NCBI RefSeq assembly: GCF_000023885.1
Contig: NC_013165.1
Coordinates: 2,046,001-2,110,000 of the forward strand
Source: Slackia heliotrinireducens DSM 20476
GTDB lineage: Bacteria > Actinomycetota > Coriobacteriia > Coriobacteriales > Eggerthellaceae
DNA: 64,000 nt
Direction of reading: 5' to 3'
Positions 26,964 through 35,453 of this stretch are shown piece after piece. Positions within the stretch are counted from its first letter, which is position 1. Each line of letters starts with the position of its first letter. The notes under the pieces are model-generated. The model worked only from the letters and a program-made list of their open reading frames with translations, did not search any database and was not told the origin of the DNA. A program made the translations under genes and the position numbers.

Positions 26964-28430
26964 CTACCGGCGCCAAGCGCGCGCGAGGGCTTCCACCCCG
27001 GCGGGAATGTCTTCGGGTTTGATGGACGAGAACCCCACCATCAGGCTTTCCTCAGGTGCGGAGCGCGAAAACCACATACGCTGCGTCCCGTAGACCGCCG
27101 CCCCTTCCCGTCTGGCGCTCGAAATGAGCTCCTGCTGCGTCATGCCGTTGGGAACGGACACGTACAGATGCATGCCAGAATGCTGCCCGGATATGCGTAT
27201 GCTGTCGCCGAACGCGTCCGTAAGCCCGGACAGAAGCGCGTCGTGGCGCTTGCGCATGAGCTTCGTCATGCGGCGAATGTGCTGGTCCCAGTATCCTTCG
27301 GCCATGAACCGCGCCAGCACCTCCTGCTCCAGCCACGGAATGCTGGGGTGGGCGTAGTTGAACAGACGGAAATAGCGCCCCAGAAGCTTGGGCGGCAGCA
27401 CCAGATAGGCCACGCGCATGCTGGGCGACAGGACCTTCGAAACGTTGCACATATATATGACGCGGCTGTAGGCGTCGAGGGACTGCAGGCTGGGTATGGG
27501 CGCGGTCTCGTAGCGGTACTCGTTGCAGCTGTCGTCCTCGATGATGTACGCGTTGTTCTGCTGCGCCCACTTCAGAAGGCGTGTTCGGGCGTCGATCGCC
27601 ATGATGCGCCCCGTGGGGAACTGGTGCGACGGCGTGCAGAACACGATCTTCGGGCGGTAACGCTCCAGCGCCTCGAAATAGGCGTCCATGCCGCAATCGG
27701 ACGGCAGCGGCACCAGACCGAACCCCATGCGCTGGGCCACTTCGCTAACCGTGGCGTAGCCAGGCTCCTCCAACCCTACCGTGTGGTGCTCCCGCGAGAA
27801 CAGCTGGAACACCGTGGCCAGCGACCCGTCGGTACCCGATTGAGGAATCACCTGCTCAGGCACGCAATCGACGCCTCTTGCCCGCTTGAGGTACGCACAT
27901 ATCTGTCGGCTGAGCTCGTTGGGTTCGGAAGTGTAGGCATAACGTCCCAGCTCGGGTATGACCGACGAGTGGAGCATCTCCCCCACCAGCCGGTACCACG
28001 TTTTCACAGGGAACGAATCATCGGGAAGGTTCGCATAGGAGAAATCGTAGAGAGCCTGTCCGCCTTGGAGGTTCTCGGCGAAAAAAGCATCCTGGCTGCG
28101 CGATTCGACCGACCGCTGCACGTTCTTCTCGATGGTAGAATCTCGCGTCATCTGCAGAAACCCGGTATCCAGCTTTTCGACCACATACCCGCTGCGCGCC
28201 ATGTTGCGCACGTACCCTTCGACGGCGAGCTGGAGGTAGGCCTGCTCCACCGTGGTGTGCGACACCCCCAGATGCCCGCAGAGCTTGCGTATCGAAGGCA
28301 GCCGATCGCCCGCAGCCAACGACCCGTCGACGATGGCACCGCTCACCTGCCGGTAAATCTGGCGGTACAGAGGCTCCAACGACCCCTCGTCGACCGAAAG
28401 CATGATTTCGCGCTGTTTCGAACGTGCCAT
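26964..28430 (-). CDS. MocR/PdxR-type regulator (GntR HTH fused to aminotransferase)
   Basis: 488-residue fusion regulator. Residues about 1-75 are a GntR winged helix (LYRQIYRQVSGAIVDGSLAA, RLPSIRKLCGHLGVSHTTVE). The remainder is a fold-type-I aminotransferase domain with IPQSGTDGSLATVFQLFSRE, VFCTPSHQFPTGRIM, YIIEDDSCNEYRYE, and the PLP lysine in CNVSKVLSPSMRVAYL. Such proteins bind PLP and a small effector rather than catalyse. Divergent from the molybdoenzyme operon, with direct repeats between, so it may control that operon. Confidence 0.93.
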   Translation of the reverse strand: MARSKQREIMLSVDEGSLEPLYRQIYRQVSGAIVDGSLAAGDRLPSIRKLCGHLGVSHTTVEQAYLQLAVEGYVRNMARSGYVVEKLDTGFLQMTRDSTIEKNVQRSVESRSQDAFFAENLQGGQALYDFSYANLPDDSFPVKTWYRLVGEMLHSSVIPELGRYAYTSEPNELSRQICAYLKRARGVDCVPEQVIPQSGTDGSLATVFQLFSREHHTVGLEEPGYATVSEVAQRMGFGLVPLPSDCGMDAYFEALERYRPKIVFCTPSHQFPTGRIMAIDARTRLLKWAQQNNAYIIEDDSCNEYRYETAPIPSLQSLDAYSRVIYMCNVSKVLSPSMRVAYLVLPPKLLGRYFRLFNYAHPSIPWLEQEVLARFMAEGYWDQHIRRMTKLMRKRHDALLSGLTDAFGDSIRISGQHSGMHLYVSVPNGMTQQELISSARREGAAVYGTQRMWFSRSAPEESLMVGFSSIKPEDIPAGVEALARAWRR

Positions 28431-28495
28431 CTACCCCCCCAAAGGTGACGAACCGCGGCATTTCCCTCTTTGGAACTCGCGAAAGTATAGCAAAT

Positions 28496-28532
28496 TGTCC
28501 GTATCGGTTTAAACCCATCTGTCCGTACCGTA
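28496..28532. promoter_or_regulatory. Direct-repeat operator candidate (MocR type)
   Basis: TGTCCGTATCGGT (28496-28508) and TGTCCGTACCGTA (28520-28532) are direct repeats sharing TGTCCGTAYCG, 24 bases apart, in the gap between mocR and the molybdoenzyme gene. MocR-family proteins commonly bind spaced direct repeats, so this is the best operator candidate here. Confidence 0.5.
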
Positions 28533-28591
28533 TTTTCTCAGCGCTCAATAAAATGCAGGGCACCGGAAGATACGGAAAGGAAGGAAGACAG

Positions 28592-30883
28592 ATGGAGAGA
28601 TCTCATCTCAGCACGCTCAGCCGCCGCGGCTTCATGAAGGGCTCGGCGCTGGCAAGCTTGGGCCTGGGGGTTGGCCTGAGCGGACTGACCGGTTGCGCAC
28701 CCACCGAGGCGCCGAAGGCCGATCAGCCTGCCGCCGAGACGACCGACGCAGCCACCAGCGGCTACCAGTACGAGCCCGAGACGTCCGAGGGCGAATGGAT
28801 CCACACCGCATGCCAACGCAACTGCTTCGACACCTGCATGATTCTGGCGAAGGTGGTCGACGGCACCCTGGTCAAGGTCAAGGGCGACCCCGACAACCCC
28901 TACACCGCAGGCGGCCTGTGCGTGAAGACGCAGAGCTACGTGGACTGGACCTACAGCGAGGAGCGCATCCTGTACCCGCTGCGCCGCACCGGCACCAAGG
29001 GCCCCGGCTGCACGTTCGAGCGCATCAGCTGGGATGACGCCATCGAGGAGATCACCACCAAGTGGAAGGACATCATCGACCAGTACGGCGGAGAGGCCAT
29101 CACCTGGAGCCGCTACCAGGGCAACCAGGGCAGCCTGAACCGCCGCGTGCTCGAGCCCCTGTTCTTCAAGATGGGCGCCACCTACTGCGAAGGCTCCATG
29201 TGCAACAACGGCTACGTGCACAGCCTCCCCTACACCACGGCCGGCGTTCCCGTGATGCGCGCCGAGGCCATCGCCGAGAAGAGCCTTTACATCAGCTGGG
29301 CGCATAACCCGGCGGCCACGTCGCTGCACACCATGAAGTTCATCAAGGAGATGAACAAGAACGGCGGCAAGATCGTGGTCATCAACCCCGTCGCCACCGT
29401 CGAGACCATGTGGGCAGACGTGTTCGTGCAGCTGAAGGCCGGCACCGACGTGGCCTTCGCCCTGGGCATCGGCAAGTATCTGCTCGACAACGACATGTAC
29501 GACGCCGAATGGATCGAGCAGTGGGCGCAGGGTCTGGACGACTACAAGGCCGAATGCGACGAGTGGCCCGCAGACCGCGTGGCCGAGGTGTGCGGCGTTC
29601 CCGCCGAGCAGGTGGCCCAGGTGGCCGAGCTTCTGTGGGAGAACCGCGAGAACGCATGCCTGAAGACCGGCCTGTGCCTGGGCCGTCGCCTGAACGGCGG
29701 CATGAGCCACATCTCCATCAAGTGCCTGTCCGGCCTGGTGGGCCATCCCGAAATGTACTTCAACATGACCAGCTCCGGCGGCCTGCAGCTGTTCAGCAAC
29801 GGCGCACCTGCCATGCAGGACACCATGTTCGAAGGCAAACTTCCCAGCGAGGCCGAGCCCGTGGGCACCGTGCGCAACTACTCCAGCCCCGACCTGGGCA
29901 AGGTTCTGACCAGCCAGAACTACGGCGAGGATCACAACTTCGCCGACAACCCGATTCGTTCCATCATGTTCTTCGGCAACAACGCCATGGTCAGCCACCC
30001 CAACCTGAACCTGGTGAAGGAAGGTCTCATGCGCGAAGACCTGTTCACGGTGGTGCACGACCTGTTCATGACCGACACCTGCGACTACGCCGACATCATC
30101 CTGCCTGCGCCGACGAACTTCGAGTACGAGGAGTTCAACGGCGGTTACGGCCACAACTACGCCGTCCACAACCAGCCGGTCATCGAGACCATGGGCGAGT
30201 GCGTGGCCAACTGGGATCTGTGCAACCGTTTGGGCCAGGCCATGGGCTTCGACGACGAGGCCTTCCATCGCGACGAGCAGTGGTTCCGCGACCTGTTCAT
30301 GACCGACAAGCCCTTCACCTACGAAGAGTTCGTCGAGAAGGGATGGATCGACTGCGAGCCCAAGACCTTCGACGAGGCCGTTTACAACGGAGAAGGCTTC
30401 AAGACCCCCAGCGGCAAGTTCCAGTTCGCAAGTGACGAGCTTGAGCACGACCACGGCACGCGCGCCCCGCACTACGTGGACGACCCCGAGAGCCTGCAGG
30501 GCGACCCGGAGCTTCTGGCGAAGTATCCTCTGGCGCTCATCTCCGCAAGCGCTAAGGAATACCTGAACGGCATGTTCGGCAACATGCCCGACAACAACCT
30601 TCTGTTCGAGGAGAACTACCTGTACATCGATGCCGAAGAGGCCGAGGAGCGCGGCATCGCCGACGGCGACGAGGTCATCGTGCGCAATGACCGCGGCGAG
30701 CTGCACCGCATCGCCCGCGTGCTTGAGAACCGCATCGCCGAGCACACCGTGTACACCTACCCCAGCACCTGGGACAAGTTCGCCAACTACCAGACGGTGA
30801 ACTTCCTGACCACCGACGCCCGTGCAGACATCGGCCGCGGCGTGTCGTTCCAGAGCTGCCTGGTGGAAGTCGAAAAGGCATAA
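28592..30883 (+). CDS. Tat-exported molybdopterin oxidoreductase (DMSO-reductase family)
   Basis: 763-residue catalytic subunit. Start at 28592 after GGAAGGAAG; the longer frame upstream lacks a signal. Tat signal LSRRGFMKG is followed by a hydrophobic stretch and LTGC, so a lipoprotein-like anchor is possible. The 4Fe-4S ligands are TACQRNCFDTCMIL and a later GGLCVK. Molybdopterin domains follow: ITWSRYQGNQGSLNRR, a probable metal-ligand area YCEGSMCNNGYVH, LFMTDTCDYADIILPAPTNF, and a C-terminal DGDEVIVRNDRGEL. Related enzymes in this bacterial group reduce or dehydroxylate diet- and host-derived small molecules. Substrate and metal ligand not assigned. Confidence 0.92.
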   Translation: MERSHLSTLSRRGFMKGSALASLGLGVGLSGLTGCAPTEAPKADQPAAETTDAATSGYQYEPETSEGEWIHTACQRNCFDTCMILAKVVDGTLVKVKGDPDNPYTAGGLCVKTQSYVDWTYSEERILYPLRRTGTKGPGCTFERISWDDAIEEITTKWKDIIDQYGGEAITWSRYQGNQGSLNRRVLEPLFFKMGATYCEGSMCNNGYVHSLPYTTAGVPVMRAEAIAEKSLYISWAHNPAATSLHTMKFIKEMNKNGGKIVVINPVATVETMWADVFVQLKAGTDVAFALGIGKYLLDNDMYDAEWIEQWAQGLDDYKAECDEWPADRVAEVCGVPAEQVAQVAELLWENRENACLKTGLCLGRRLNGGMSHISIKCLSGLVGHPEMYFNMTSSGGLQLFSNGAPAMQDTMFEGKLPSEAEPVGTVRNYSSPDLGKVLTSQNYGEDHNFADNPIRSIMFFGNNAMVSHPNLNLVKEGLMREDLFTVVHDLFMTDTCDYADIILPAPTNFEYEEFNGGYGHNYAVHNQPVIETMGECVANWDLCNRLGQAMGFDDEAFHRDEQWFRDLFMTDKPFTYEEFVEKGWIDCEPKTFDEAVYNGEGFKTPSGKFQFASDELEHDHGTRAPHYVDDPESLQGDPELLAKYPLALISASAKEYLNGMFGNMPDNNLLFEENYLYIDAEEAEERGIADGDEVIVRNDRGELHRIARVLENRIAEHTVYTYPSTWDKFANYQTVNFLTTDARADIGRGVSFQSCLVEVEKA

Positions 30884-30906
30884 CGGCTCCGCGCCGAGCA
30901 AGCAAT

Positions 30907-30936
30907 GCGGGGCGCAGGCCTGCAACTGCGCCCCGC
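30907..30936 (+). repeat. Intercistronic hairpin
   Basis: Perfect 10-base-pair stem GCGGGGCGCA / TGCGCCCCGC without a T-run, between the catalytic and Fe-S subunit genes. Likely an mRNA-stabilising or partial-attenuation element. Confidence 0.6.
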
Positions 30937-31005
30937 CCCTAACCAGATGATCCCAACCTGCGGACGAACCGCGACCCGCAGGGTTTTCGAAAAAGGAGAA
31001 GAACA

Positions 31006-31527
31006 ATGAGCCAGATGGGATTCCTGCTCGATCAGAAATACTGCATCGGCTGCCAGACCTGCCAGCATGCCTGCCGCGTGCGCCACGGCTTGGAGCCGGG
31101 AACCTACCCGCGCAAGGCCACCAGCAGCCAGATTCAGGTCGTCGGCCCGTTTTTGAGCATGGCCTGCAACCACTGCACCGCCCCGGCATGCGTGGCCGTC
31201 TGCCCCGTAGGCGCTCTCACCAAGCGCGAGGATGACGGCATCGTCGTCCACGACCCTGAGATCTGCATCGGATGCCTTTCCTGCCAGCAGGCCTGCCCCT
31301 ACGACCACCCGCAGCTGAACACCATCACCGGCAAGATGGTCAAATGCGACATGTGCGCCGCCCTGCAGGACAAGGGCGAAACCCCTGCCTGCGTTGAGGC
31401 TTGCCCCGTCAAGGTGCTCACCGTGGGCACCATCGAGGATTTGGAAGCCCAGGGCGGAGTAAAGGAAGGCGTCGATTTCACCTACGCCGAAACCGAGCCC
31501 AACTTCCGCTTCATCCCCATCGATTAA
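31006..31527 (+). CDS. 4Fe-4S electron-transfer subunit (DmsB/NrfC-like)
   Basis: 173-residue ferredoxin-like subunit with four 4Fe-4S cluster motifs: CIGCQTCQHACRV, CNHCTAPACVAVCPVG, CIGCLSCQQACPY, and a fourth set KCDMCAALQ with CVEACPV. This is the DmsB/PsrB layout. It would pass electrons between the molybdoenzyme and a membrane partner. Start follows AAAAGGAGAA. No signal peptide, so it is probably co-exported with the Tat-bearing catalytic subunit. Confidence 0.93.
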   Translation: MSQMGFLLDQKYCIGCQTCQHACRVRHGLEPGTYPRKATSSQIQVVGPFLSMACNHCTAPACVAVCPVGALTKREDDGIVVHDPEICIGCLSCQQACPYDHPQLNTITGKMVKCDMCAALQDKGETPACVEACPVKVLTVGTIEDLEAQGGVKEGVDFTYAETEPNFRFIPID

Positions 31528-31540
31528 CCCCTCAACCTGT

Positions 31541-31579
31541 GCCGGCGGCCTTGTCCCCTCCCAGCCGCCGGCGCGTTTT
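31541..31579 (+). terminator. Hairpin terminator after the Fe-S subunit
   Basis: Nine-base-pair stem GCCGGCGGC / GCCGCCGGC (31541-31549, 31564-31572) followed by GCGTTTT. May lower expression of the chaperone and membrane genes relative to the enzyme subunits. Confidence 0.6.
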
Positions 31580-31645
31580 GCAAACCTCGATTCCGCAATC
31601 GAGCCACCCCGCGTCCATCCGCCAGAACCGTACCAAGGAGCAACC

Positions 31646-32338
31646 ATGACCGGCATCAACACACCGTTCGAGAACAACGCCGAATACGCCGACTTCGCCC
31701 TGTATCGTTCGCAGATGTACGCTGCTGCATCGGCCGCATTCACCACCGAACCGACCTGCGAGGAACTGCAGACCCTGGTGGAAGCCGCCTGTGCATCCGA
31801 CGGCTCCGACTGCCTTCGCGATTGCGAACTCAACCTGTTCGAGCACCTGCAGACCTACCGCGACGAGGATCCCTCTGAACTGCGGACCCGCGTGGCGACG
31901 GAATATGCCGAGCTGTTCGTAGGACCGCGCCCTCCGCTGGCCCCCTTGTACGAGTCGGTCTACGTCGGCGCCGTGAAACGGCTGAACACCGATGTGACCA
32001 TGCAGGTGCGCAGGTTCTACGAGAACCACGGGTTCACGGCGGTCAACCGCAACAGGGTGCCCAACGACCATATCGGCCTTGAGCTTGAATTCATGGCGCG
32101 GCTCTGCGCGCTGGAGGCCGAAGCCGCGATGCGCGACGACCATGCCGAATGCGACCGGCTTCGCCATGTGCAGCTGGAGTTTTTGGCACTGCACCTGTCC
32201 GCCTGGGTGGACCTGTTCGCTTCCCGCCTGTCCCAGGCGTGGTGTGCGGATTACTACGACGCATGGGCGCGCTTCGTCCAGAGCTTCATAAAAGAGGACG
32301 ACGCCTACCTGAGCGCATCTTTGGGCATTGCCGCCTAG
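31646..32338 (+). CDS. TorD/DmsD-family molybdoenzyme chaperone
   Basis: 230-residue all-helical cytosolic chaperone that holds the apo-catalytic subunit and its Tat signal until cofactor is inserted. The segment YAELFVGPRPPLAPLYESVY and PNDHIGLELEFMARLCALE (containing the family's E-P-D-H-like PNDHIG) are diagnostic. It also has a C-terminal SAWVDLFASRL. Context with the Tat-exported molybdoenzyme confirms the role. Confidence 0.92.
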   Translation: MTGINTPFENNAEYADFALYRSQMYAAASAAFTTEPTCEELQTLVEAACASDGSDCLRDCELNLFEHLQTYRDEDPSELRTRVATEYAELFVGPRPPLAPLYESVYVGAVKRLNTDVTMQVRRFYENHGFTAVNRNRVPNDHIGLELEFMARLCALEAEAAMRDDHAECDRLRHVQLEFLALHLSAWVDLFASRLSQAWCADYYDAWARFVQSFIKEDDAYLSASLGIAA

Positions 32339-32391
32339 CGGCGAGCCGCCCCTGCCGACATCCCCACAGAACAACGATTGGAGCGACGTTC

Positions 32392-33081
32392 ATGGAGGTC
32401 ATCCTCTGTCTGATTGTCACCTCGATCGCCGTCTGGCTGCTGCGAAAACCCATTGCGAAGGCCCCTTGGGCCTTCTATATAGCAGCCGCGGCGTTGAGCC
32501 TGGCGTTCGGAACCGGTCTTGTTTCAAACTTGAGCTATCAAGCCGCCATGTTGCTCACGCCCGTCATGAGACGCTGCGAGCTTGCCTTCGCGCTGCTGGC
32601 CGTCGTCATGTTCACAGGCATCCTTCCCAAGGACTCGAAACTGCGCCTGCAGCTTGTCCCCATCCGCGGGTATTTGGCCATCATCGCGGCAATTCTGGCA
32701 TCCTGCCACATCTTCCTGTATGGAAGGGCCTACCTTGCGAAAGTCGGGGTGGCCTTCGGCGGGTTGAACACCGCCACCTATGCCGCCCTCGCCTTCGCCG
32801 TCGCGTTGGCGGTGCTGCTGGCCGTGCTCTCCGTAACGTCGGTGCGCATGGTGCGCCACCGCATGAGCCCACAATCTTGGCGCACGTTGCAGAAGGCGTC
32901 GTACGTGTTCTTCCCTCTGATCGGCGTGCATGCGCTGCTCATGATCGGACCCGCAGCGCTTGCGGGAGGCCCGTCGGCCGGCAACGCCTTGGCGTATCTG
33001 GTCGTCATCGTCGCCTACATCGCCGCACGGCTCGCCCGAGCGGCCGCGGACAGACGCGGGGTCTGCGACGACGCACGGTAG
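32392..33081 (+). CDS. b-type cytochrome-like membrane protein (ferric-reductase/MsrQ-like)
   Basis: 229-residue integral membrane protein with about six hydrophobic segments. Candidate haem-ligand histidines occur in ILASCHIFLY (near residue 105) and FFPLIGVHALLM (near residue 180); WRTLQKASYVFFPLIGVHAL resembles the YedZ/MsrQ helix. It would oxidise menaquinol and hand electrons to the Fe-S subunit. Start at 32392 is preferred but has only a weak ribosome site (GGAGCG). Last gene of the molybdoenzyme operon. Confidence 0.78.
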   Translation: MEVILCLIVTSIAVWLLRKPIAKAPWAFYIAAAALSLAFGTGLVSNLSYQAAMLLTPVMRRCELAFALLAVVMFTGILPKDSKLRLQLVPIRGYLAIIAAILASCHIFLYGRAYLAKVGVAFGGLNTATYAALAFAVALAVLLAVLSVTSVRMVRHRMSPQSWRTLQKASYVFFPLIGVHALLMIGPAALAGGPSAGNALAYLVVIVAYIAARLARAAADRRGVCDDAR

Positions 33082-33085
33082 AACC

Positions 33086-33114
33086 TTGACAAGAGCTGCC
33101 CACCCCGTTATAAA
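33086..33114 (+). promoter_or_regulatory. Sigma-70-type promoter of the riboswitch-MATE unit
   Basis: TTGACA (33086-33091) and TATAAA (33109-33114) with exactly 17 bases between. Expected transcription start is near 33121, where the riboswitch P1 stem begins. Confidence 0.8.
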
Positions 33115-33120
33115 GAAACG

Positions 33121-33240
33121 GTTTTATAGGGTTCCGCAGCGAAAGCTGGCCTGGTCCGAGATAAAACGGGTCGGACGAACATACCGGCCTAACACGGAAG
33201 GACAAAAGCCTGGGAGATTGTACAGTCTCCCAGGCTTTTT
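33121..33240 (+). ncRNA. ykkC-class (guanidine-I-like) riboswitch with expression-platform terminator
   Basis: The leader contains the ykkC landmarks in order: AGGGTTCCG (33128-33136), a CAGC-GAAA-GCTG hairpin (33137-33148), CTGGTCCGAGA (33151-33161), and the 3' core ACGGAAGGACAAAAGCC then TGGGAGA. P1 is closed by GTTTTAT (33121-33127) with ATAAAAC (33161-33167). The 3' core overlaps the left arm of an intrinsic terminator, so ligand binding should prevent termination and turn the gene on. Class 1 (guanidine) is favoured by the downstream exporter gene; the ppGpp and PRPP subtypes carry other gene types. Confidence 0.85.
33204..33240 (+). terminator. Riboswitch-controlled terminator
   Basis: Perfect 14-base-pair stem (33204-33217 with 33226-33239) with an eight-base loop and terminal T-run. 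Its left arm is the conserved AAAAGCC-TGGGAGA end of the ykkC aptamer. Confidence 0.9.
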
Positions 33241-33260
33241 ATGTACGAGGCGGCGATAAC

Positions 33261-34568
33261 ATGTACCAAGGTTCGGCGGCAAAGGTGTTCGCACGATACG
33301 CTATTCCGCAGATGATCGGTCTGCTCTTCAATTCGGTGTACATAATCGTCGACGGCGTGTTCATCGGCAACCGGCTCGGCAGCATGGCCTTAGCGGCAAC
33401 CGGCGTCGCCGTGCCCGTGGTCGAGCTGCTCATCGCGTTGAGTATGGCCGTGACCGCCGGGGCGGGCGTGGTGGTTTCGACGCGCATCGCAAAGCGCGAG
33501 CACGAACAGGCGGTCAGAGCCTTCCATACCTGCCTGGTGCTCCAGGGAATAATCGGGCTGTCCGTCGTCATCCTGGGCAACCTGTTCATCCACCCCTTGG
33601 CGAAGCTTCTGGGCGCCACTCCTGACATCCAGGCCATGACGGTAACCTACCTTCGCTACGTCCTGTCTTTCGCACCGTTTTTGCTGTTCGGCTACCTGCT
33701 CGGCGGCCTTGCCAGAAACGACGGCAAACCGAAGCTGGCCATGGTGGCGCTGTCGGCAGGCTCGCTTTCGAACATCCTTCTCGACTACGTGTTCATGTAC
33801 CCTTTGAACATGGGCATCGCAGGCGCGGCGCTGGCAACAGGCATCGGCCCCATCGTCAGCATGGCCATCCTGCTCCCCCACTTCTTCGCGGGAAAGGGCG
33901 TGCTGCGCTTCCAAAAGACTGCGCTTTCCGGCAACGACGCGCGAAGCTTCCTGCGGCTCGGCCTTCCGTCATTCGTCATGGAGTTCAGCATCGGCATGGT
34001 CACGTTCCTCATGAACTTCGGCATCGTCCGCTACGGCTTCGGCGAAAACGGGCTGGCGGCATACCTCATCATAGGCTACCTGATGCTCATCGTGTTCACG
34101 CTGTTCCTGGGGATGGCAGAGGGACTCCAACCTGCGTTCAGTTACCTGCATGCGGCGGGCGACCACACCAAGCTCAAGGCCCTGCTGCGCTTCGCCGCCT
34201 GCGTGTTCACGGCCGTAGGCGTAGTGTCGTACGTCCTGGTGCTGTTCTTCTCCATCCGGTTCTATTCGATTTTCACGCCCGAGGCCCACGAAGTGGCCGT
34301 CATGGCCGCTCAGAAGAGTACCTGGTATTTCTGCGGATTGGCCTTCGCGGGCATCAACATCCTGTCGATTTCCTATTACCAAGCCACCGCCCAAACAGGA
34401 AACGCCCTGCTTATCTCGTCTCTCAGGGGCTTCGTGCTCCCGGCGCTGCTCATTCTTATCTTGCCGGCGGCATGCGGCCCGGAGCTGCTCTGGATCTGCC
34501 ATTCGACCGCCGAAATTATGACCACGCTCGTCTGCCTCGCATGCGCCACCCACCTTCTCCGCCGCTAG
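33261..34568 (+). CDS. MATE-family efflux transporter
   Basis: 435-residue multidrug and toxic-compound exporter with about 12 hydrophobic segments. FARYAIPQMIGLLFNSVYII, VDGVFIGNRLGSMALAATG, and a repeat of this pattern in the second half (PSFVMEFSIGMVTFLMNFGI) are typical. It begins 21 bases past the riboswitch terminator, with a weak GAGGCGG ribosome site. Being behind a guanidine-I-like switch, it is a candidate guanidinium exporter; its family name alone would not reveal the substrate. Confidence 0.92.
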   Translation: MYQGSAAKVFARYAIPQMIGLLFNSVYIIVDGVFIGNRLGSMALAATGVAVPVVELLIALSMAVTAGAGVVVSTRIAKREHEQAVRAFHTCLVLQGIIGLSVVILGNLFIHPLAKLLGATPDIQAMTVTYLRYVLSFAPFLLFGYLLGGLARNDGKPKLAMVALSAGSLSNILLDYVFMYPLNMGIAGAALATGIGPIVSMAILLPHFFAGKGVLRFQKTALSGNDARSFLRLGLPSFVMEFSIGMVTFLMNFGIVRYGFGENGLAAYLIIGYLMLIVFTLFLGMAEGLQPAFSYLHAAGDHTKLKALLRFAACVFTAVGVVSYVLVLFFSIRFYSIFTPEAHEVAVMAAQKSTWYFCGLAFAGINILSISYYQATAQTGNALLISSLRGFVLPALLILILPAACGPELLWICHSTAEIMTTLVCLACATHLLRR

Positions 34569-34658
34569 TGTGACAATCTCCCGAACCTTTTTTGTCACAT
34601 TCCGAATATGGCGGAAGGAACCGCTGCACGCACCCGCAAACTTCTTTCGAAAAGGGTA

Positions 34659-34689
34659 TTGACCCTTACGTTACGTCATGGTTTATCGT
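34659..34689 (+). promoter_or_regulatory. MerR-type promoter with long spacer
   Basis: TTGACC (34659-34664) and TATCGT (34684-34689) separated by 19 bases that include the partly symmetric CCTTACGTTACGTCATGG. The over-long spacer with a dyad is the hallmark of promoters activated by MerR proteins, and the next gene is a MerR regulator. Confidence 0.65.
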
Positions 34690-34718
34690 ATCCGCAGAGA
34701 CGGAAAGGAGAGCAGGCC

Positions 34719-35453
34719 ATGCGAACGGTACACGAGGTTAGCGACCTGTCAGGCATCAGCATCCGCACGCTGCAGTACTACGACAGAATAGGGCTTCTGC
34801 ACCCCACCGAACGCACACAGGCAGGTTACCGCCTGTACAGCGACGACGACCTGGCGCGGCTTCAGCAGATACTGCTGTTCCGCGAGCTGGAGTTTCCGCT
34901 CAAAGACATCAAAAGGATAATCAACAGCCCGGATTTCGACCGGTCGAAGGCCTTGGAGCAGCAGATCGAGCTTTTGGAGCTGCAACGCAGCCGCATCGCC
35001 CGCCTGATCGCACTGGCCCGGGAATTGAAAGAGAAAGGAACCGGCATGCCGACATTCGAACCGTTCGACACGAAGAAAATCGACGAATACGCCGCACAGG
35101 CGAAGGCTTCGTGGGGCTCCACCCCCGAGTGGAAGGAATACGAAAGCAAATCGGCCGGACGCACGGACGAGGAGGAGCGATCGATGGGCGAAGAGCTGCT
35201 GTCCCTGTTCAAGCCCTTCGGGCAAATGGCGGCCGAAGGTGCGGACCCTGCAAGCGAGAAGGCCCGCGAACAGGCGAAACGCATCCAGGATTACATCACC
35301 GAACACTTCTATACCTGCACGGACGAAGTGTTCCTGCAGCTGAGCCGGGCCTACGGCGCAGGCGGCGAGTTCACGCGCAACATCGATGCCCACGCAGGCT
35401 CCGGAGCTGGTGCGTTCGCCATGCATGCGATCGAGGCGTATATCGAAGGCTAG
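34719..35453 (+). CDS. MerR-family regulator with TipAS-like ligand domain
   Basis: 244-residue TipA-type regulator. Start at 34719 after AAAGGAGAG. N-terminal winged helix [20 protein letters not shown] then [20 protein letters not shown] and [14 protein letters not shown]; coiled coil about 75-110; C-terminal helical domain with [19 protein letters not shown] and [20 protein letters not shown], matching TipAS drug-binding domains. Probably auto-activates from the adjacent 19-base-spacer promoter and responds to a cationic or peptide toxicant; target genes beyond itself are unclear (the MATE gene is upstream, same strand). Confidence 0.9.

Follow-up and report, generated by a model that had tools for sequence, protein, structure and literature searches.

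A guanidine-I riboswitch stands directly before the gene for a MATE family transporter in Slackia heliotrinireducens DSM 20476, and it probably turns this exporter on when free guanidine accumulates. The window analysed here is the whole stretch of 64,000 nucleotides, and all positions refer to it (Table 1). From a transcription start near 33120, the emerging RNA would fold into a ykkC aptamer. When guanidine is absent, the aptamer's 3′ strand would be captured by 33224-33238, giving a terminator that stops transcription at 33236-33240. With guanidinium in the S-turn pocket, the strand would stay in the aptamer, no terminator would form, and the MATE gene would be read. The encoded protein is probably a DinF-like MATE antiporter with cation coupling; it would export guanidinium and would stand in for the SMR exporter Gdx, which is absent from the host genome. 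Switch and gene were probably acquired horizontally, and in the gene lineage guanidine-I would have replaced an ancestral guanidine-IV.

Table 1. Features of the switch locus, in window positions
Feature	Positions	Strand	Basis
Sigma-70-type promoter	33086..33114	+	TTGACA 33086-33091, 17-nt spacer, TATAAA 33109-33114; read from sequence
Guanidine-I (ykkC subtype 1) riboswitch aptamer	33115..33218	+	RF00442, 79.7 bits
Intrinsic terminator	33205..33240	+	Stem 33205-33219 / 33224-33238, loop 33220-33223, T run 33236-33240
Candidate ribosome-binding site (GAGGCGG)	33247..33253	+	Read from sequence; putative
MATE family transporter, 435 aa, predicted guanidinium exporter	33261..34568	+	PF01554, TIGR00797

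Aptamer, terminator and ligand class

The −35 box of the promoter begins 5 positions past the stop codon of the upstream gene, and the TTGACA-17-TATAAA promoter directly precedes the aptamer. It is missing from the output of the automatic promoter scan because the scan demands T as the final base of the second hexamer. The upstream gene, which ends at 33081, is the last of a molybdopterin oxidoreductase-type cluster (28424-33081) comprising a catalytic subunit, a 4Fe-4S subunit, a TorD-like chaperone, and a membrane protein. Next after the MATE gene comes a MerR/TipAS regulator gene (34608-35453), which more likely starts at the ATG at 34719, behind TTGACC at 34659-34664, and its promoter spacer contains the repeat ACGTTACGT.

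The preliminary description had read ykkC landmarks directly after a consensus promoter and had asked for a covariance-model scan. A cmscan of all 64 kb against Rfam release 15 bears this reading out, with RF00442 (Guanidine-I) matched over the full model (1-107) at E 1.5e-12 and above its curated cut-off of 63 bits. No other Rfam family exceeds its cut-off within the 64-kb window. A permissive Rfam scan of 33050-33300 finds no second riboswitch family, the runner-up (21.3 bits) being far under its cut-off.

The terminator hairpin (33205-33238) has 15 pairs, a 4-nt loop, and a stability of −24.6 kcal/mol, and it ends in a run of 5 T. None of 1000 dinucleotide-preserving shuffles is as stable. 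Its left arm overlaps the aptamer 3′ end by 14 bases (33205-33218), in agreement with the earlier view of this arm as the conserved 3′ core, and the shared bases suggest the ON-switch architecture that had been proposed. The expression platform lies in the 5′ UTR, with the terminator end 22 bases from the ATG of the MATE gene. The terminator scan tool reports only an unrelated weak hairpin at 33105, and it probably missed the hairpin at 33205-33238 because the stem takes in part of the T run. A chance promoter-terminator reading of the locus is rejected in view of the RF00442 match and the stability of the terminator relative to the shuffles.

The S-turn core of the aptamer is ACACGGAAGGACAAAAGCC. 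It is identical upstream of two of the closest MATE relatives, from Lachnospiraceae MAGs L042 (66% identical in the MATE protein) and L043 (64%), and is one letter off the SMR-linked L127. The purC-linked L089 has the core ACACCTTAGGGATAAAAGCC and, at 59.6 bits, is under the RF00442 cut-off. The comparison of cores was made by regular expression and covers 8 of 15 rows. Across 397 Lachnospiraceae-family genomes, RF00442 gives six matches in 5 genomes. The genes that follow are SMR (L087, L088), an SfLAP-family membrane protein (L086), and purC (L089), where SMR (L088) and purC (L089) were named by reading translations. The fifth match precedes the MATE gene in the genome of L042, on which the search was centred and which alone among the 397 has guanidine-I before MATE, and the sixth, L090 (42.8 bits), has no assignable gene behind it. 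L090 (G167:C70:31988-32090) is a degenerate second Guanidine-I copy with a decayed core, about 9 kb from L086. The element at L089:1501-1592 (minus strand), a sub-threshold RF00442 match before a purC-like gene, is likely a PRPP-type ykkC variant. At L087:2055-2537, a pyridoxamine-phosphate-oxidase-like gene (PF12900) is the second gene after a guanidine-I/SMR pair.

As described in PMC6031431, the ykkC subtypes have a common fold, and subtype 2 is set apart by changes around the S-turn pocket. The common fold, and the Rfam release 15 scan that gives one single ykkC family at the site, could accommodate a subtype 2 aptamer sensing ppGpp, PRPP, or a nucleotide, with a MATE gene of another pathway. 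This is extremely improbable, given that the aptamer scores over the guanidine-I cut-off, that the core ACACGGAAGGA is common to RNAs before SMR genes whereas the purC-linked relative has ACACCTTAGGGA and is under the cut-off, and that the gene encodes a transporter and not an enzyme of purine or branched-chain amino acid biosynthesis. The preliminary description would have yielded to a subtype 2 assignment; the model scan lends that no support, and the core is unlike the PRPP variant. The score over the cut-off and the guanidine-type core make guanidine the expected ligand.

The RNA itself thus belongs to a known class and is ordinary except for its rare partner; what is added is the comparative case for this partner being a guanidine exporter. 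Guanidine-I systems before SMR gdx have the same aptamer, nearly equal core letters, the terminator overlap, and the ON architecture. In contrast to these systems, whose partner is SMR, the partner here is MATE, in a host without an SMR gene. Guanidine-I also controls genes whose products do not export guanidine, such as ctdA (PMC11477304).

The MATE protein and the host transporters

The assignment of the downstream gene to MATE is upheld by PF01554 (113.5 bits, cut-off 24.9), which matches in two stretches corresponding to two repeats. TIGR00797 is just over its cut-off (148.6 versus 147.4 bits). The AlphaFold2 model has a pLDDT of 92.5 and a pTM of 0.89, and the first 39 Foldseek rows for this predicted structure are MATE/MOP transporters, including 5c6n (listed there as protein A). 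The best solved relative by sequence is DinF-BH (4lz6, 5c6n; E 2.8e-39), with a TM-score of 0.88 and about 25% identity. The membrane residue Asp31 aligns with Asp in DinF-BH, whereas Glu55 aligns with Met. Human MATE1 with metformin, a biguanide (9r1f), has the same fold (TM-score 0.82), although it is eukaryotic and 19% identical, and its entry indicates that the fold is able to hold a guanidine-bearing cation.

Several residues distinguish the clade of the window protein. In 36 clade rows against 20 outside rows (L072 and L077 left out), Asp31 occurs in 36/36 versus 14/20, Glu55 in 36/36 versus 5/20, Asp154 in 36/36 versus 7/20, Gln374 in 36/36 versus 2/20, and Phe242 in 36/36 versus 0/20. 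The nearest NCBIfam equivalog models are the multidrug pumps PRK09575, FepA, and MepA, all far under their cut-offs (FepA 196.3 of 900 bits, MepA 96 of 850); GntT, also under its cut-off, reaches 28.5 of 525 bits. These models, and the other genes that follow guanidine-I in most switch-bearing Lachnospiraceae-family genomes, would suit a general multidrug MATE pump that came under the guanidine switch by chance recombination and has no physiological role in guanidine export. Such an origin is improbable: the clade has signature residues such as Glu55, and the switch-MATE pairing recurs in L042 and L043, whose proteins are only 64-66% identical to that of the window, so that the pairing has been kept over a long divergence.

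The SMR family (PF00893) has 0 genes anywhere in the host genome, while the same search is positive in 8 of 14 control genomes. A search of the L042 genome with Gdx as query likewise gives no SMR match at E 1e-15. The window gene, a MATE of 435 aa, does not belong with the SMR exporter Gdx (about 105 aa). The host has five MATE genes, counted from ten domain matches, and only that of the window stands behind a Guanidine-I match. Experimentally known guanidine exporters are SMR proteins (PMC12186494). Since it is the sole host MATE behind Guanidine-I and the host is without SMR, guanidinium is taken, with reasonable confidence, as the most likely export substrate of the window MATE; the main rival is a guanidine-derived or co-occurring compound.

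A probable second guanidine RNA in the MATE lineage

A total of 42 MATE relatives were fetched with their upstream DNA. This figure takes in four rows with no assessable upstream region: L060 and L066, which begin only 6-7 bases inside a contig, and the partial matches L078 and L083. Apart from L042 and L043, the other 40 have no Rfam riboswitch upstream. Many of the relatives instead have a motif composed of a hairpin CCC-GCC-GGGG, followed by GUGUA-GUAGGCC...UACAC inside a terminator. The aligned copies, 21 in number, have two hairpins with complementary loops (GCC and UAGGCC), the second loop lying inside the terminator stem. The stems covary: both sides have changed in 25 cells, a count equalled by none of 500 shuffles, and slid controls are far lower. 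The inner hairpin varies in pairs as GUGU/ACAC, GUGG/CCAC, and GCAU/AUGC.

The element upstream of L046 matches no Rfam 15 model over its cut-off, its permissive matches being other families, and for this reason the model R1 was built from the 21 aligned copies. R1 reaches at least 34 bits upstream of 22 of the 42 MATE relatives. For 21 of them the match is built in, because their sequences went into the model; L073 is independent. A further copy occurs in L053 on the other strand (39.1 bits), and the next best match in 531 kb has 16.7 bits. In 299 Lachnospiraceae-family genomes, R1 matches 4 genomes at E 1e-6 or better: L106 and L107 before MATE, L108 before an unrelated-looking ORF, and L109 without the core. 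The MATE of L107 is identical to that of L065 in the tree. In the class of L073, 14 of 247 genomes yield weak matches, 15 in all and scoring 21-36 bits, which were judged to be chance terminators without the two-loop core. A regular expression for this core hits 91 of 1479 background stretches and therefore does not count as evidence on its own.

The published anatomy of guanidine-IV consists of two loops able to kiss, one of them in the terminator (PMC12186494, PMC9788692). The second-loop letters reported as essential by mutation are G66, U67, and G72 in Lactococcus lactis and G71, U72, and G77 in Clostridium botulinum, with equal spacing (PMC7736828, PMC11611296), and G62 of the L. lactis RNA is also listed among them. 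By spacing, the G66 equivalent is present in 21/21 copies of the sister motif, that of G72 in all or nearly all (L069 has a one-base insertion there), and that of G62 in most. The U67 equivalent is C, facing a loop-1 G, whereas the published U is highly conserved and was tested. In the C. botulinum RNA, the changes A29G/U72C restored the loop pair (PMC7736828, PMC11611296). Elements read by eye as similar precede the SMR genes L131 (ACC/GGU loops) and L132 (GCC/GGC loops). The anatomy and the published positions, rather than an Rfam model, suggest that the sister-clade motif is guanidine-IV, with the C at U67 as the main caution.

The structure of guanidine-IV is unrelated to that of the guanidine-I RNA in the window. 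A search of the window with R1 gives no match at E up to 1, and the two hairpins with a kissing loop, the second in a terminator, are absent there. Upstream of L044 and L045, and of the Planctomycetaceae rows L068, L070, L072, and L077, there is no recognised guanidine RNA, so that not every member of the clade shows the link between RNA and MATE. Neither guanidine-I nor a guanidine-IV-like RNA occurs at MATE loci L003-L010 of the host's family, which lie outside the clade. In the upstream stretches of L049, L061, L078, and L081, close to several MATE genes, a second CCGCCGGGT...TAGGC element is followed by genes whose starts resemble that of the pyridoxamine-phosphate-oxidase-like gene of L087.

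A further transporter-like family, SfLAP (PF11139), seems to be associated with both guanidine RNA classes. One of its membrane proteins lies at L086:1501-2384 after a Guanidine-I match (90.2 bits), and the protein at L053:2667-3233 (minus strand), which has a weak sub-cut-off SfLAP match, comes after an element of the guanidine-IV-like kind (39.1 bits).

In a tree of 58 proteins built by maximum likelihood, the window MATE falls into one clade with L042, L043, L044, and L045 (100/99). The sister of this clade is L055, which carries the guanidine-IV-like motif, with a joint support of 98/91, and both are nested among rows that mostly have this motif. The guanidine-I and guanidine-IV labels change once each on the tree, unlabelled rows not counted. 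A second tree without 18 long or distant rows keeps the nesting (100/99 and 97/88), with L055 and L067 as long branches. L066 was left out of both trees as too short, and the partial L078 and L083 were not translated. The simplest history would be a single replacement of an ancestral guanidine-IV by guanidine-I, followed by loss before L044 and L045.

That one MATE lineage is associated with two classes of guanidine-sensing RNA suggests guanidinium as its substrate. The nesting of the guanidine-I clade in a guanidine-IV-linked MATE clade, together with the lack of SMR in the host, agrees with the preliminary description, in which the MATE was a predicted guanidinium exporter. MATE transporters are often polyspecific, as is human MATE1. 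The switch might thus sense guanidine as an alarm signal while the MATE exports an accompanying compound, such as canavanine, methylguanidine, agmatine, or a plant or drug guanidino compound. In line with this, both guanidine-I and guanidine-IV control ctdA, whose product clears canavanine from tRNA (PMC11477304), and the MATE partners of a guanidine-IV variant were suggested to have other substrates (PMC9788692). This alternative is rather unlikely, as a single MATE lineage is tied to two RNAs that sense guanidine itself, and in a host without SMR an exporter of free guanidine would otherwise be missing.

A proposed role of MATE in guanidine export is already in print. PMC7736828 proposes the MATE genes under guanidine-IV (GGAM-1, mepA motif) as exporters of a new family, so a MATE partner for guanidine riboswitches, as read in the preliminary description, had been put forward before. 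According to the same source, guanidine-I, -II, and -III control such MATE genes never or only in very rare cases. The MATE genes behind the guanidine-IV-like motif are related to that of the window, mostly at 54-57% identity, and have the same predicted job. Searches of the open-licence PMC literature brought up no description of a guanidine-I/MATE pair.

Origin of the cassette and its meaning

The host genome has 1 copy of RF00442. In scans with stricter filters, in which weak matches may be lost, the host itself is the only one of 138 genomes of its family and of 346 genomes of its class with a match. The best MATE match among the other members of the family is 34% identical. The closest relatives, L042 and L043, have Guanidine-I directly before the MATE gene (79.8 and 81.9 bits) and the same promoter-aptamer-terminator layout as the window, with the promoter (TTTACT-17-TACAAT/TATACT) in the same place relative to the aptamer. 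The MATE proteins of L044 and L045, from MAGs labelled Planctomycetaceae, are 65% and 64% identical to that of the window, and Guanidine-I is absent upstream of their genes. The rarity of the switch in the family and class, and the distance of the next MATE in the family, suggest that switch and gene were probably acquired horizontally by the host lineage, with their nearest relatives in Lachnospiraceae.

The cassette DNA has no match among 72,556 plasmid or 50,697 phage records, and a mobile element reading was rejected. The GC content of the MATE gene (60.6%) is like that of the window (61.6%), and a foreign composition signature was likewise rejected. The host-like composition implies that a transfer would not be recent, or that the donor would be G+C-rich. 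A recent transfer is not indicated by composition, and loss elsewhere may be an alternative to acquisition. For the MerR/TipAS neighbour, nothing better than 37% is found in 11 same-genus genomes, and therefore an empty site could not be shown.

The host has a predicted guanidine-responsive switch in a bacterial class where this switch class is found in no other of the 346 searched genomes. The case looks like the replacement of one riboswitch class by another on related genes. The balance tips slightly towards a broader proposal: that the MATE sub-lineage marked by Asp31, Glu55, Asp154, and Gln374 would be a dedicated guanidinium exporter family, a counterpart of Gdx in SMR-less anaerobes, whose genes would have switched riboswitch class from IV to I before horizontal transfer into a gut-type actinobacterium. 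Being tied to two unrelated guanidine-sensing RNAs, the MATE lineage makes a good comparative case for a second type of guanidine exporter, and the window MATE, L042, L043, and L046 are concrete proteins on which transport could be assayed directly.
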